A DNA stretch of 51,348 nt from Gemmatimonadota bacterium (GTDB lineage Bacteria > Gemmatimonadota > Gemmatimonadetes > Longimicrobiales > Gaopeijiaceae): assembly GCA_022826005.1 (NCBI GenBank), contig JAJDVT010000136.1, positions 1-51,348 of the forward strand, written 5' to 3'. Positions within the stretch are counted from its first letter, which is position 1, and each line of letters starts with the position of its first letter. This document shows, one piece after another, positions 3,921 to 51,303 of this stretch. The position numbers and the translations under genes were made by a program. Below the pieces are notes generated by a model. That model saw nothing but the letters and a program-made list of their open reading frames with translations. It was not told where the DNA came from and did no database searches.

Positions 3921-4973
3921 ATGGGTGTGCGGCTGCTGGTGGGCACCTCGAAGGGCGGGTTCTGGGTGACGAGCGACGATCGCCGCGAGTGGGCGGTCGA
4001 GGGGCCCTTCTTCAAGGGATGGAAGGTGACGGCGGGACTGCGGCTGGCCGGCGGCGGGTTCATGGCTGCGGTCGCGAGCGACATCTACGGGCCGGCGATC
4101 TTCCTGTCCGCGGACGGCGAGGAGTGGGAGCAAGTGGAGGAGGGGCCGGCCTACCCGGACGGCGACGACCGCAGGCTGCGGCAGGTCTGGACGCTGCGCG
4201 AGCACCGGGGGACGGTCTACGCGGGCGTTCAGGATGCGGGACTGTTCACCAGCGGCGATGGCGGACGGTCGTGGAAGCCGGTGCCGGGGCTGAACGATCA
4301 CGAGACGCGCGGCGGGTGGATGCCGGGGGCGGGGGGGCTCTGCTGCCATGCGGTCCTCTTCGACCACGCGAATCCCGACCGCGTGTGGTGCGGGATCTCG
4401 GCGGTCGGCGTCTTCCGCACCGACGACGGCGGCACCACCTGGACTCCGAAGAACCGGGGCGTGTACTGGGCGCACGAGGACGAGGAGTTCAAGGAGATCG
4501 GGCACTGCGTGCACGGGATGGCGCAGGATCCGGACGATCCGGGGCGGATCTTCCGCCAGGATCATTCAGGGATGTACCGGAGCGGCGATGGCGGGGAGAG
4601 CTGGACGAAGAACGAGACCGGGCTTCCGTCGGGGTTCGGCTTCCCGGTCGTGATGGACGACGCCACCCGGTACCTCTTCGCGGTCCCGCTGGAAGCCGAC
4701 CAGTACCGGCTGCCTGCCGGGGGTGCGATTCGGGTGTACCGCAGCACCGATGGTGGGGACAGCTGGCACTCGGCGTCGGCGGGATTGCCTGCGGAGCACG
4801 CGTACGGCGGGGTCCTCCGGGGAGCGATGGCTGTGGACAATCTGGATCCGGGGGGCGTGTACATGGGGACGACCTCGGGAACGCTGCATGTGAGCCGGGA
4901 TCTGGGGGAGAGCTGGGTGAATCTTCCGGTGATGCTGCCGCGGGTCCTGCACCTGTCGGCGTGGGTCGGGTGA
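3921..4973 (+). CDS. BNR/Asp-box repeat protein (sortilin/WD40-YVTN-like propeller)
   Basis: A 350-residue cytoplasmic beta-propeller. The start MGVRLLVGTSKGGFW at 3921 has AGGGAG ten bases upstream; the ATG nine bases earlier is too close to that site. Asp-box motifs (SxDxGxxW) repeat through the protein: TSGDGGRSW, RTDDGGTTW, RSGDGGESW, RSTDGGDSW and SRDLGESW. There is no signal peptide. The stop codon overlaps the start of a MoaD/ThiS-like gene (TGATG), so the two products are made together. Asp-box propellers include sialidases and sortilin-like proteins, but the catalytic arginines of sialidases are not evident, so a binding or structural role is more likely. Confidence 0.85.
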   Translation: MGVRLLVGTSKGGFWVTSDDRREWAVEGPFFKGWKVTAGLRLAGGGFMAAVASDIYGPAIFLSADGEEWEQVEEGPAYPDGDDRRLRQVWTLREHRGTVYAGVQDAGLFTSGDGGRSWKPVPGLNDHETRGGWMPGAGGLCCHAVLFDHANPDRVWCGISAVGVFRTDDGGTTWTPKNRGVYWAHEDEEFKEIGHCVHGMAQDPDDPGRIFRQDHSGMYRSGDGGESWTKNETGLPSGFGFPVVMDDATRYLFAVPLEADQYRLPAGGAIRVYRSTDGGDSWHSASAGLPAEHAYGGVLRGAMAVDNLDPGGVYMGTTSGTLHVSRDLGESWVNLPVMLPRVLHLSAWVG

Positions 4974-5251
4974 TGCCCACGGTCACCGTCCACCTGCCGT
5001 CGCTGCTGGAGCCGGTCACTGGCGGGGTGCGCGAGTTGACGGCGTCGGGCGGGTCCCTGCGGGAAGTCCTCGACGACCTGGTCGCGCGTGAACCGCGCCT
5101 GAAGCCGCACCTCTTCAACGAGGCCGGCGAGTTCCGGCGGCATGTACTCTGCTTCCACAACGGGACTAACACACGGTGGCTGGCGTGCCTGGACGCGCCC
5201 GTGGCGGACGGTGACACCGTCCTCTTCATGCAGGCGGTGTCGGGCGGGTAG
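4973..5251 (+). CDS. MoaD/ThiS-family ubiquitin-like small modifier protein
   Basis: A 92-residue protein with the beta-grasp pattern: opening strand VTVHLPSLL, helix GSLREVLDDLVAREPRL, and the hallmark C-terminal Gly-Gly (QAVSGG) that is activated by E1-like enzymes in MoaD, ThiS and small archaeal modifiers. A segment FHNGTNTRWLACLDAPVADGDTV precedes the tail. The ATG overlaps the stop of the BNR-repeat gene. No molybdopterin or thiamine genes are nearby, so a dedicated cofactor role is unsupported; coupling with the propeller gene suggests that protein as partner or target. Confidence 0.85.
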   Translation: MPTVTVHLPSLLEPVTGGVRELTASGGSLREVLDDLVAREPRLKPHLFNEAGEFRRHVLCFHNGTNTRWLACLDAPVADGDTVLFMQAVSGG

Positions 5252-48069: not shown

Positions 48070-49281
48070 TCACTTACGGGATTCGAAGATCCGATTCCCG
48101 CTGTTCGGTTCCCGCTGATTGGATGAGACGCCTACCTTGCGGGGACGGCTGTCCAGAGCCGTCCTGAGGCGTACTTCGTCGGTGTGCTGGTAGCACCGCA
48201 GGACGGTCTGGGCCTCCTTCCAGCCACCGAGGTCGCACAGCACCTTGAGCGGCAGGCCCATGAGATCGGTCGCGAACTTCCGCCTCAGCGAGTGCCAGCC
48301 CCTCCCACGTTTGGGCTCCAGCCCCGCCCGCCTCTCGGCGGACTTCCACCAAGCGCCCACCCGCAGGCCGCTCACGCACTTCGAGTGATCCCGCGGCGCG
48401 GGCAGAACCGGCGCATCCCCGGCCCCGCGACTGTGGCTCCGCGCCTCCTCCAGGGCTCCGATCGCCTGGGCGGTGACGGGCGTCCGGTGCTCGTATCCGG
48501 TCTTCTCGTGCTCGGCGCGCCATAGGATGGTCCTGTCCTCGAAGTCGATGTCGTGCCACCGCAGCTTGCGGATGGCCCCGATCCGGTGACCCGTCTCGTG
48601 CGCGAGCACGAGCGCCACGCGGAACCGCCAGCCAACCCGGTCGGACACCGCCAGTAGCGCCTCGTATTCCTCGTCGGAAAGCACGACCCGGGTGGGGTTC
48701 TTCTCCATCGGCACCCTGAGTCCCCTCAGCGGGTTCGAGTCGAGCAACAACCGACCTCGCTCGTCTCTCGACTTGGCGGCCCAGTTGAGGATTGCGAGCA
48801 GGATCCTCAGGTCGTAGCCGACCGTGCGGTCGGACGCGGGCTTGCCGCTTGCCCCGACCCTGCCCGCCCGCCGCTCCCGGATGAACCGGTCCCAGTCGCG
48901 CTGGGATAGGGTTTCGGGCTTCCGCTCCCGGCCGAAGAACCGGAGGAACATCTTCATCGCGGCCCGGTCGGACCTCTGAGACGTCTCCGCCTTGGTGGGT
49001 GTCACCTCTTCCCGGTAGATGTCAAACAGCCCTCCCAGGGTGAGCGGCTCGGGCTCCGACTTGCCGTTCATCTCCGGCCCGGCGAACCCGGCGGCAAACT
49101 CGTCCGCCTGCCGCTTCGCCTGCCGCCAGTCGCGGTGCTTCAGCGACCTCGTGAGCCTGCGTCCGTTCTCGCGCCACTCCATCTGGTACAGGCCGGTCTT
49201 GGGATCGGGAAAGACCCGGACCCGGTTCCGGCCCCATTCGCCGGCGCCGTAGCTCCGGCGGCTTCTTTTCGTGCGTGCCAT
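48070..49281 (-). CDS. Tyrosine-type site-specific integrase
   Basis: A 403-residue integrase; the ATG at 49281 (MARTKRSRRSYGAG) follows GAGG at 9 bases. The N-terminus has a basic SAM-like/core-binding part (TLGGLFDIYREEVTPTKAETS, then RFIRERRAGRVG). The catalytic domain shows the expected residues: Arg in HETGHRIGAIRKLRW, a Lys in EHEKTGYEHRTPV, HxxR in WHSLRRKFATDL, Trp in LGGWKEAQTVLRCYQH and the nucleophile Tyr in that same motif. It probably catalyses integration and excision of the element at the right end of the window. The gene ends 95 bases from the propeller start, so the element boundary may lie in that interval. Confidence 0.92.
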   Translation of the reverse strand: MARTKRSRRSYGAGEWGRNRVRVFPDPKTGLYQMEWRENGRRLTRSLKHRDWRQAKRQADEFAAGFAGPEMNGKSEPEPLTLGGLFDIYREEVTPTKAETSQRSDRAAMKMFLRFFGRERKPETLSQRDWDRFIRERRAGRVGASGKPASDRTVGYDLRILLAILNWAAKSRDERGRLLLDSNPLRGLRVPMEKNPTRVVLSDEEYEALLAVSDRVGWRFRVALVLAHETGHRIGAIRKLRWHDIDFEDRTILWRAEHEKTGYEHRTPVTAQAIGALEEARSHSRGAGDAPVLPAPRDHSKCVSGLRVGAWWKSAERRAGLEPKRGRGWHSLRRKFATDLMGLPLKVLCDLGGWKEAQTVLRCYQHTDEVRLRTALDSRPRKVGVSSNQREPNSGNRIFESRK

Positions 49282-49398
49282 CGTTCGATTCCTCTCGATT
49301 CGATGGACTGCACGATCTGCGCGTAGCAAAGTTCTCATCGACGGACATTCTCCGCCAGTCTCAGTCGGCGCCGAACCGCCTTCCCGCAGGGATAATTG

Positions 49399-49493
49399 GA
49401 CGGGAGCGACCCCTGGTCGGCCGGGGCGGGGGTGCGCAAGCACGCTCGCCCCCGTGCCGCACCAAGCCCTCCGGGCGGGGGGTCGCTCCCGTC
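49399..49493. repeat. 15-bp perfect inverted repeat
   Basis: GACGGGAGCGACCCC (49399-49413) and GGGGTCGCTCCCGTC (49479-49493) are perfect complements 65 bases apart. The spacer contains further pairing, for example GGGGGTGC against GCAC and CCCCC. Such long arms upstream of a relaxase resemble oriT inverted repeats. Confidence 0.75.
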
Positions 49494-49494
49494 A

Positions 49495-49524
49495 CGGTCG
49501 GTGCCGCGAGTGCGGCACGGACCG
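49495..49524. repeat. GC-rich hairpin beside the 15-bp repeat
   Basis: CGGTC-G-GTGCCGC, loop GAGT, GCGGCAC-G-GACCG: a 7-bp stem extended by 5 bp beyond one G-G mismatch. It starts one base after the 15-bp repeat ends. Confidence 0.7.
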
Positions 49525-49600
49525 GCCTGTCTCGGCGACGCAAGACGTAGCGGCGTCAGCGGATACGCGCCGGTGGCGGTGCGCATCGCCAAAGGGCCGA

Positions 49601-49634
49601 AGTGCGCATCGGACCCCCGCGTCGTTTGCGCACT
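49601..49634. repeat. Structured hairpin A
   Basis: AGTGCGCA pairs with TGCGCACT around an 18-base loop (TCG...ACCCCC...GTCGTT). The flanks GGGCCGA and CCAGTACGGC allow a further GCCG/CGGC pairing. Hairpin B, 212 bases on, has the same stem length, loop length and flanks. Confidence 0.65.
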
Positions 49635-49812
49635 CCAGTACGGCTCCAAGTCCTACGCAGAGCGTCGGTTGGCTTGCTCCGGCGCGGTGGTCGGTCCAGC
49701 GCGCCGCGCCAGCTAGGAATCGGTCCCTTACCACTTGGCCCTCAGCGAGGAGCGAGACACCGCCGCGCCCGCAGATGGCTGGCCCCACCCGTGTGAATCC
49801 GCTGCGGGCCGA

Positions 49813-49846
49813 AGTGTGAATCGACCCCCCACGTCATTTTCACACT
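49813..49846. repeat. Structured hairpin B, covarying with A
   Basis: AGTGTGAA pairs with TTCACACT around an 18-base loop very similar to that of hairpin A (4 differences). Compared with A, two stem positions differ and both differences are matched on the opposite arm (C-G to T-A, C-G to A-T). The flanks GGGCCGA and CCAGTGCGGC are kept. Confidence 0.65.
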
Positions 49847-50024
49847 CCAGTGCGGCATGGGTTACCCGACCGCACGCGCTCGGGCAGCCCGTCCGCGAGG
49901 CGGCTGTTCACGGCCTCGGCGTCAGGGAGCGGGTCGAACCCCACCGGATCGGCGTGAACCCTGAACCGGATCGCCCACGCCCTGGACTCCCGGGGCCTCG
50001 GCACCGGCCGCGACGCTGGAGGCG

Positions 50025-51080
50025 GTGGAGCGGGCCGCGCGGCTGATGGCCGCGACGGCAAAGGCGGCCCCCGACCTCAAGCGGCTCGTGGGCGGTGGGC
50101 CAGGGGGCCGGAAGCTGGCGAAGCCGGTTCTGCACTACTCGCTCAGCTGGGCTCGGGACGAGACGCCCGACAAGGGGGAGATGAGCCGCGCGGTGGACGA
50201 GAGCTTGGAGGCGCTGGGGCTGGAGGGCCACGAGGCGCTGATCGTCGCGCACGAGGACACGCGGCATCCGCATGTCCACGTCATCGCCAACCGTGTCGAT
50301 CCCGAGACCGGGAAGGCGGCGACGCTGGGCAACAGCAAGCTCCGGCTGTCGCGCTGGGCCGAGGGCTACGAGCGGGAACAGGGCCGGATCCGGTGCGAGC
50401 GGCGGGTCGAGAACAACGAGCGGCGGCGGGCGGGCCAGGAATTGGTTCGCGGTCCGTCGGACCGGCCGCGCCACTGGGCGCGCGTCCGCCGCGAGGGGAT
50501 GCAGCCCGGGCGGGCGCGGCGGGCAAGGAAGCCGCGCCGCGAGGATCAAGTCGACATGGAGGCATGGCGGCGCCTTGAGGCGGAGGCTTGGGAGAAGGTC
50601 GAGGACGGGCGCGAGTGGAGCTTCGGGCACCTCGAGACGCGGGCGCGGAAGGAATGGGCCGAACTGCACAAGCGGCAGGAAGACATGCGGCAGACGCTCG
50701 ACCGGGAGAGCCGCACCGTGCTCGGGCGGCTCCGGGTCTGGCGCATCGAGCGCTCGTTGCGGGAACTGGTCGGTGCGGTCCGGGGCCGGGCGGATCTGGT
50801 CGAGGGCTGGCGCGAGGATCTCGACCGGGATCACAGGGACGAACGGACCGCGCTGGGCAAGGCACACGGCGAGAGAGCCCGGGAGATCGAGCGCGGTGTG
50901 CGCAAGGTCTATCGAATGGATCTGGTGTTCGCGGAGCGGCGCGCATGGGCGGTGCGGAAGACGATGAGGGAGCGCCAGGAGGCGAGGGAACGGGAGAGCG
51001 GGCGGAGCATCGTCATCCCCGTTCCCCGGCCGCCCCGGCCCAGAGGCCCCGAGCGTGGCGGGAGCGGGTTCGAGCGGTGA
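50025..51080 (+). CDS. MobA/VirD2-like relaxase, N-terminus missing
   Basis: A 351-residue frame from GTG 50025. It opens at the helix RAARLMAATAKAAPDLKRLV, then HYSLSWARDETPDKGEM and the metal-binding relaxase motif ALIVAHEDTRHPHVHVIANRVDP, whose His residues hold the divalent ion used for nicking. The rest is a long Arg/Glu-rich coiled-coil region. Related relaxases have 40-60 residues before this point with the catalytic Tyr and an RV-WT-TRNL-like segment. Here the frame is closed by a TGA about 70 bases upstream and no such segment was found, so the gene may be 5'-truncated or frameshifted. Confidence 0.8.
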   Translation: MERAARLMAATAKAAPDLKRLVGGGPGGRKLAKPVLHYSLSWARDETPDKGEMSRAVDESLEALGLEGHEALIVAHEDTRHPHVHVIANRVDPETGKAATLGNSKLRLSRWAEGYEREQGRIRCERRVENNERRRAGQELVRGPSDRPRHWARVRREGMQPGRARRARKPRREDQVDMEAWRRLEAEAWEKVEDGREWSFGHLETRARKEWAELHKRQEDMRQTLDRESRTVLGRLRVWRIERSLRELVGAVRGRADLVEGWREDLDRDHRDERTALGKAHGERAREIERGVRKVYRMDLVFAERRAWAVRKTMRERQEARERESGRSIVIPVPRPPRPRGPERGGSGFER

Positions 51081-51108: not shown

Positions 51109-51303
51109 CTAGCTGGCTGGAGGCCGGGGCACTTGGAGATCCTTGCAGATCTTTCTGGCGAGGTCCCAGTTGATCTCGTTGTGCCGGGGGATCGTCGAGG
51201 CCTTCTCGGCCGTCCGGTTGATGTAGAGGGTGTGGTTGCCACCCTCGCGCAGGAAGTCGCACCCGTGTCGAGCCAAGTGCCGCAGCAAATCCCGGCGCTT
51301 CAC
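51109..51303 (-). CDS. hicA: HicA-family toxin
   Basis: A 64-residue protein from GTG 51303. It matches the HicA double-stranded-RNA-binding-like fold: MKRRDLLRHLARHGCDFLRE, then GGNHTLYIN with the catalytic His, and STIPRHNEINWDLARKICKDL. HicA is an mRNA-cleaving toxin neutralised by HicB. The start overlaps the stop of the gene upstream (GTGA), so toxin and partner are coupled, with the partner first. It lies at the end of the mobile element and could stabilise it. Confidence 0.9.
   Translation of the reverse strand: MKRRDLLRHLARHGCDFLREGGNHTLYINRTAEKASTIPRHNEINWDLARKICKDLQVPRPPAS

Follow-up and report, generated by a model that had tools for sequence, protein, structure and literature searches.

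The stretch of DNA analysed here, called the window (51,348 nucleotides), is one entire contig (C75) of the 143-contig, 4.85 Mb source assembly of a Gemmatimonadota bacterium. Towards its right-hand end lie two hairpins, which had been proposed to be under selection for pairing, as a structured RNA or as a single-stranded DNA site used in transfer or recombination. What this original prediction had described in the letters themselves was borne out on re-reading: hairpin A (49601-49634, AGTGCGCA-18 nt-TGCGCACT) and hairpin B (49813-49846, AGTGTGAA-18 nt-TTCACACT) have equal 8-bp stems and 18-nt loops, their stems differ at two pairs, each of which is compensated on the opposite arm, and their flanks are common. 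Perfect hairpins of these dimensions number three in the window, while 20 mononucleotide shuffles gave 1.95 on average, so a lone hairpin is expected about twice per window by chance and the weight rests on what goes beyond chance, namely a 66-bp context shared by A and B at 76% identity and conservation in the source genome and its relatives. BLAST gave 10 matches within the source genome, and the search of relatives gave matches in 18 of 59 genomes (the source genome counted), belonging to 2 of 31 genera.

The first description had missed that the two changes separating A from B recur in an unpaired direct repeat 5' of each hairpin, that the loop of a large perfect inverted repeat holds a further copy of the same short half-site, and that all these parts belong to one conserved unit of about 300 bp. 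In the list below, WHP is a winged-helix protein and T4CP a coupling protein, whose genes flank the unit in conjugative elements; a unit with neither gene beside it, as in the window, is called an orphan.

48070-49443 (-): tyrosine integrase gene (PF00589, E 2.3e-19)
49379-49653 (+): orphan unit A, counterpart of the region from WHP stop to T4CP start in conjugative elements
49379-49385 (-): CCTTCCC, remnant of the GGGAAGG ribosome-binding site before the T4CP start, conserved in the alignment of orphans
49399-49413 (+): left arm of the large perfect 15-bp inverted repeat
49432-49438 (+): IR-loop copy, half-site GTGCGCA, inside the inner hairpin of the inverted repeat
49479-49493 (-): right arm of the large inverted repeat; relatives show stem pairs changed on both sides
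49579-49585 (+): half-site R1, type A, GTGCGCA, direct repeat
49602-49608 (+): half-site R2, type A, GTGCGCA, the left arm of hairpin A
49627-49633 (-): half-site R2', type A, GTGCGCA, the right arm of hairpin A
49752-49856 (+): unit B, shorter, with leader (similarity judged by eye), R1, R2 and R2' of type B and no large inverted repeat
49791-49797 (+): half-site R1, type B, GTGTGAA
49814-49820 (+): half-site R2, type B, GTGTGAA, the left arm of hairpin B
49839-49845 (-): half-site R2', type B, GTGTGAA, the right arm of hairpin B
50025-51080 (+): MobA/VirD2-like relaxase reading frame (PF03432, E 2.9e-23; NF041893, E 1.4e-24)

The hairpins had been placed between an integrase and a relaxase. 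For the integrase, comparison with relatives suggests that its true start is at about 49281 (MARTKR...). It has 35 matches in the source genome, many of them full length at 68-82% identity and many truncated or with internal stops. Its relatives come from MAGs labelled mostly Gemmatimonadetes or Gemmatimonadota, including two Longimicrobiales-labelled chromosomes, and some are labelled otherwise, for example Gammaproteobacteria (record labels as given); many of these MAGs we take to be sponge bins. None was confirmed in viral contigs, and the integron integrase model TIGR02249 gave 20 bits against a cut-off of 265. On the other side, the relaxase frame matches PF03432 over profile positions 26-131 of 132, and since the match begins only at position 26, the N-terminal end seems to have been lost or shifted out of frame; in the search of the window and 20 loci, only the window had this frame. 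A HicA toxin gene (51109-51303, minus strand; PF07927, E 1.5e-9) lies near the contig end. The tRNA search of the window found none, and the 521-bp locus had no match in the plasmid collection.

A conserved unit between two genes of conjugative elements

Unit A begins with the large inverted repeat and its inner hairpin, followed by a conserved leader, R1 and then R2/R2'. In the coverage test, the alignments of all 19 other units extend over it, with coverage dropping at about +100, and the models named R1 and R2 match it at 49575-49653 (94 bits) and 49383-49499 (98 bits), respectively. The arrangement of the window, in which an A and a B core stand in tandem, is repeated at 11 distinct loci among the 38 first fetched, with the two 208-214 bp apart.

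In Gemmatimonadota conjugative elements, the corresponding region of about 300 bp sits between the WHP gene and a VirD4-type coupling-protein gene. The distance from WHP stop to T4CP start is 295-304 bp, and GGAAGG stands just 5' of the T4CP start, in all eight loci examined; 8 of the 16 WHP neighbourhoods have the gene of a TraG/VirD4-type coupling protein after the unit. The orphan units retain exactly this intergenic span. Complete elements have the order T4SS genes, WHP, region, VirD4-type coupling protein, ArdC, further genes and integrase. One such element, read from AlpA to the integrase (L222 12171 to L158 11275), carries VirB4, CagX/VirB9, TrbI/VirB10, a hit-less protein, TrbL/VirB6, VirB8 and WHP in its first part, and then the unit, T4CP, ArdC, a 300-aa hit-less protein and the integrase. 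The relaxase models of Pfam and NCBIfam matched none of the scanned ORFs of the examined conjugative element. Thus the unit lies within the mobilization/T4SS gene region, and it bears repeats, both inverted and direct, such as accessory proteins bind, here as predicted binding sites.

Two further observations concern the genes around the units. The 300-aa protein adjoining ArdC (L158 8478-9377, L225 744-1646), whose L158 copy has no Pfam or NCBIfam match, appears by eye to contain a winged helix and a PD-(D/E)XK-like stretch and may be a candidate nickase. Near units or elements there are also defence genes (L072 4216-7002, L062 3196-4755, L222 10146-12030), coding for an MmeI-type restriction enzyme, HsdM and an AbiEi/AbiEii pair.

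The position of the region immediately 5' of the T4CP start could mean that WHP is a regulator and the region the promoter and operator of the coupling-protein gene, in which case the orphans would put the integrase or cargo of other elements under the control of a resident element. Winged-helix proteins are frequently repressors, six of the 13 WHPs have weak AbiEi_4 matches (best E 9.5e-4), and units of half-site type C (GTGCACA) often lie about 250 bp upstream of an integrase. However, relative to the integrase the orphan units stand in either orientation, and they are found beside unrelated genes too; where unit, WHP and integrase are all present (L106, L114, L121, L126), WHP lies between the other two, so the closeness of unit and integrase could stem from loss of WHP; and a region of about 300 bp that includes a large inverted repeat exceeds the usual size of an operator. 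We regard an operator as unlikely, if the most serious of the alternatives. The unit stands at the place expected of an oriT, and the persistence of orphans without the flanking genes fits a cis-acting site better than a promoter of the coupling-protein gene.

Half-site types and the pairing of the arms

Is it pairing, or a protein reading the DNA, that has shaped the hairpin arms? From 86 inverted-repeat matches, 79 were retained after removal of 7 that were end-cut, IS-interrupted or disrupted, and these gave 73 distinct units once 6 duplicates had been set aside. Typing covered the four copies of each unit (IR-loop, R1, R2 and R2'), and arms fitting no type were excluded from the counts. 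The half-sites fall into types A (GTGCGCA), B (GTGTGAA), C (GTGCACA), F (GTGTCCG), H (GTGTGCA) and G (GTGTATT). The paired arms R2 and R2' agree in type in 43 of 58 units. Copies that do not pair with each other agree as often, in 51 of 65 units for R1/R2 and 54 of 67 for IR-loop/R2, and the other combinations gave 47/56 (R1/R2'), 45/62 (IR-loop/R1) and 40/57 (IR-loop/R2').

Since the direct repeats agree as well as the arms do, the compensated changes do not show selection for pairing, which had been given as their cause. Nor do the homologues uniformly keep the arms matched: where both arms could be typed (58 units), their types differ in 15. Such hybrids include L083, L127 and L156 (C/B), L084 and L124 (C/A), and L128 and L150 (C/F); some pair the type of R1 with that of R2' and the type of the IR-loop copy with that of R2 (L128 1367, L150 3973, L084 2979, L124 3991, L146 1174), as though two specificities alternated.

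A structured RNA or single-stranded DNA hairpin with 8-bp stems, kept by selection for pairing, would find its best argument in an alignment of 44 A and B cores, in which 95.5% of the cells pair, against 86.5% in shuffles, and 29 cells are changed on both sides, against 9.8. Yet nearly all these double changes are concentrated in two of the seven pairs (13 cells each), which are the letters separating types A and B, and the same co-variation is found in direct repeats that are unable to pair. Searched against the 4227 families of Rfam, the entire window gave no match at gathering score, and the best weak match of the locus was S6-S18-Chlorobi (27.6 bits against a gathering score of 47.4). We therefore give pairing selection very little credence as the origin of the hairpins. 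The apparent compensation in the stems of the A and B cores can be traced to one protein reading both arms, and the arms are most likely protein half-sites of the form GTGNNNN, in some six subtypes, rather than an RNA stem. A general caution follows: compensated changes in an inverted repeat do not in themselves count as evidence of a folded RNA, as a single protein reading both arms gives the same pattern.

The case for pairing is better for the large inverted repeat (49399-49493), where relatives show compensated changes in both the stem and the inner hairpin: 96.7% of the stem cells are paired in the relatives, and 8 of 25 pairs are changed on both sides. With such compensated changes in the stem, a folded single strand may matter there, though the pattern could also arise from a paired protein site. 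The conjugative elements have this repeat overlapping the coupling-protein gene's 5' leader, and a leader structure is a possibility beside the folded single strand.

A separate observation concerns an insertion sequence that sits in the cores of two distinct A-type units and splits both at one and the same point, following GTGTCG (L084 5356 and L108 5409, both minus strand). The L108 transposase (4177-5196) belongs to the IS110 family (PF02371, PF01548), and the insertion may be a targeted one.

The winged-helix protein and its putative half-sites

Many units have, on their core side, the gene of WHP, a protein of about 310 aa that begins with a winged helix of the MarR/ArsR type. For 15 of the 20 WHP matches in the first loci, 24-54 bp separate the 3' end of the WHP gene from the core end of a typed unit; of the other five, two are copies of typed loci and three are without a unit (two at locus ends, one with a disrupted core). 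Of 298 genomes taken from the phylum, 35 encode WHP, and these fall in 6 of 119 genera; in 72,556 plasmid records WHP had no match.

In the structural model, made with 39 sequences (mean pLDDT 88), residues 48-60 form the third helix of the winged helix, and in the fold search residues 1-94 resemble MarR/ArsR winged helices with Z up to 7.7. Beyond residue 94 no relative was recognised, the fold comparison there being minimal. PDB sequence profiles gave weak matches only (pTAC3, E 0.046 and 0.094), and Foldseek against PDB and viral models gave none at E 0.001 or better. Membership of WHP in the Replic_Relax family was also considered; no Pfam match to that family appeared at E up to 5.

Compared by eye, third helix and half-site change together: HHERARR goes with GTGCGCA, HPEQVRR with GTGTGAA, HHEKVGR with GTGTGCA, DRFKTLRF with GTGCACA and RRSARRF with GTGTCCGG. 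Proximal and distal halves that differ are found as well, GTGTCCG/TTGCACA with SRFTALRF and GTGTGAA/CTGCACA with SRFKVLRL, and for three distant WHPs the layout is unchanged but the motifs are others (CGGTACA, GTGCAAC, GTGTGAC). For a quantitative comparison, 79 matches were reduced to 63 WHP-site pairs that were long enough and distinct, from which three were dropped (a disrupted site, no recognisable site, a frameshift), and the remaining 60 were clustered at 88% to 39. The best of 50 twelve-residue windows of WHP was 43-54, which correlated with half-site distance at r 0.52 (partial 0.31 given the rest of the protein), and windows at 241-264 were nearly equal (r 0.47-0.51). In partial Mantel tests, the helix given the rest of WHP gave 0.231 for the proximal half (3 of 2000 permutations as high) and 0.175 for the distal half (4 of 2000). 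The rest of WHP also correlates with the half-sites (0.31 proximal, 0.47 distal), and given the helix it keeps a partial correlation of 0.313 with the distal half (0 of 2000), so the correlation of helix and half-site is confounded with common descent. With descent partly controlled in this way, the variation of WHP appears to track the predicted oriT subtype, as expected of an accessory factor.

These results bear on two further readings of the unit. Our own first reading, taken from its 13-bp arms, 6-bp spacer and direct repeats, was that of a core or att site of a tyrosine integrase, perhaps of the attI/attC kind; it agrees with the arm-spacer-arm anatomy, with the hybrid arms and with the frequent presence of the units in integrase-bearing regions. 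We dropped it because the unit of a complete element lies inside it, between the conserved WHP and T4CP genes and not at an edge, and because the half-sites follow WHP; we now consider it highly improbable. IS21-type ends and integron attC also came under consideration as candidate identities of the unit. A boundary-type site is found elsewhere, as a second repeated site after the integrase stop (in L101, L112, L136, L148, L141, L123 and L155), whose commonest form is GCGGGAATC twice, then GAATCCCG TAAGTTCAA. It adjoins tRNA-Ile or tRNA-Pro in 7 of 7 loci examined, which makes it a likelier att site than the unit, and it is likely to be the attachment site of this integrase family. As for a replication origin or partition site with iterons, for which WHP would be the initiator or partition protein, repeated half-sites adjoining a winged-helix protein gene are what it would call for, but the sites come after the WHP gene and not before it, the conserved neighbour is a coupling protein, an integrase is present in the same element and WHP was not matched in the plasmid records, so we hold it to be scarcely plausible.

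A putative transfer origin and its likeness to known systems

We propose that the unit is an oriT-like region of a family of ICEs in sponge and marine Gemmatimonadota, in which the arms of the hairpins are half-sites for a DNA-binding protein, and we think this reading rather probable. WHP would bind the inverted half-sites R2 and R2' together with the direct copies R1 and IR-loop, and, in the manner of TcpK and SmpO, would recruit the relaxase and the coupling protein to the region, acting as the specificity factor of the relaxosome. Different elements would carry WHPs with different recognition helices, each with its matching half-site subtype. The early suggestion of a site for DNA transfer thus keeps its ground in the neighbourhood of WHP, unit and coupling protein in conjugative elements, and loses the pairing rationale that had been given for it.

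The window itself may be an integrative mobilizable element, whose tandem A (GTGCGCA) and B (GTGTGAA) sites would serve helpers of two specificities. None of the five WHP matches in the source genome is intact with an A- or B-type helix (among them, C25 has HHETVGR, C73 has HPEKVRR and C110 is a fragment), so, in this incomplete assembly, the helpers would come from other cells.

A bolder extension is that WHP, or the 300-aa protein by ArdC, belongs to a new class of oriT-nicking enzyme, in a conjugation without known relaxase, with modular half-site specificity and with oriT subtypes stacked for several helpers; as a whole we see this as speculative and rather doubtful. In the titles and abstracts of open-licence papers on conjugation or oriT in Gemmatimonadota and on winged-helix relaxosomes, we saw nothing on the system described here. 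If our proposal is right, it would offer a testable code linking a short helix of WHP with a four-base variable half-site across many natural subtypes, and the orphan copies would predict which mobilizable element rides which helper. It would also give a view of the transfer origins of uncultured bacteria that are common in sponges, possibly with conjugation that uses no recognised relaxase.

What are the closest parallels in known systems? According to the report on the Clostridium perfringens plasmid pCW3 that we draw on (PMC6137059), the winged-helix protein TcpK is encoded immediately 5' of oriT and binds a nine-nucleotide tandem repeat there, contacting the DNA mainly via the wing, in a conjugation system with VirB6/VirB8-like proteins and an unusual relaxase. 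Our system resembles it in having the gene of a winged-helix protein next to a repeat-bearing region, and VirB6/VirB8-like proteins. Unlike TcpK, WHP has about 310 aa, with a second domain without recognised fold and a peak of variation at the recognition helix, and it occurs in several subtypes within one genus. No sequence relationship between the two was seen, and TcpK is absent among the Foldseek and VIA-align matches listed, the latter covering only the winged helix of WHP.

In staphylococcal plasmids of the pWBG749 family, SmpO is described as an accessory protein that confers oriT specificity, with five subtypes; its sites comprise an inverted-repeat arm and a second copy about 65 bp away, and non-conjugative plasmids carry oriT mimics, pWBG762 having three subtypes of them (PMC8136818). 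Our units are alike in their predicted sites in an inverted-repeat arm plus a further copy, in their subtypes, and in their putative orphan mimics. In contrast to SmpO, a ribbon-helix-helix protein of plasmids, WHP is a winged-helix protein carried on integrative elements in Gemmatimonadota.

Finally, the genomic islands mobilized by SXT (MGIVflInd1 type), as outlined in the report cited, bear an integrase and only an oriT resembling that of the helper ICE (PMC5704250). The window likewise has an integrase and an orphan oriT-like site. It differs from these islands in having two sites of different subtype in tandem, and in that its relation to a helper is putative.
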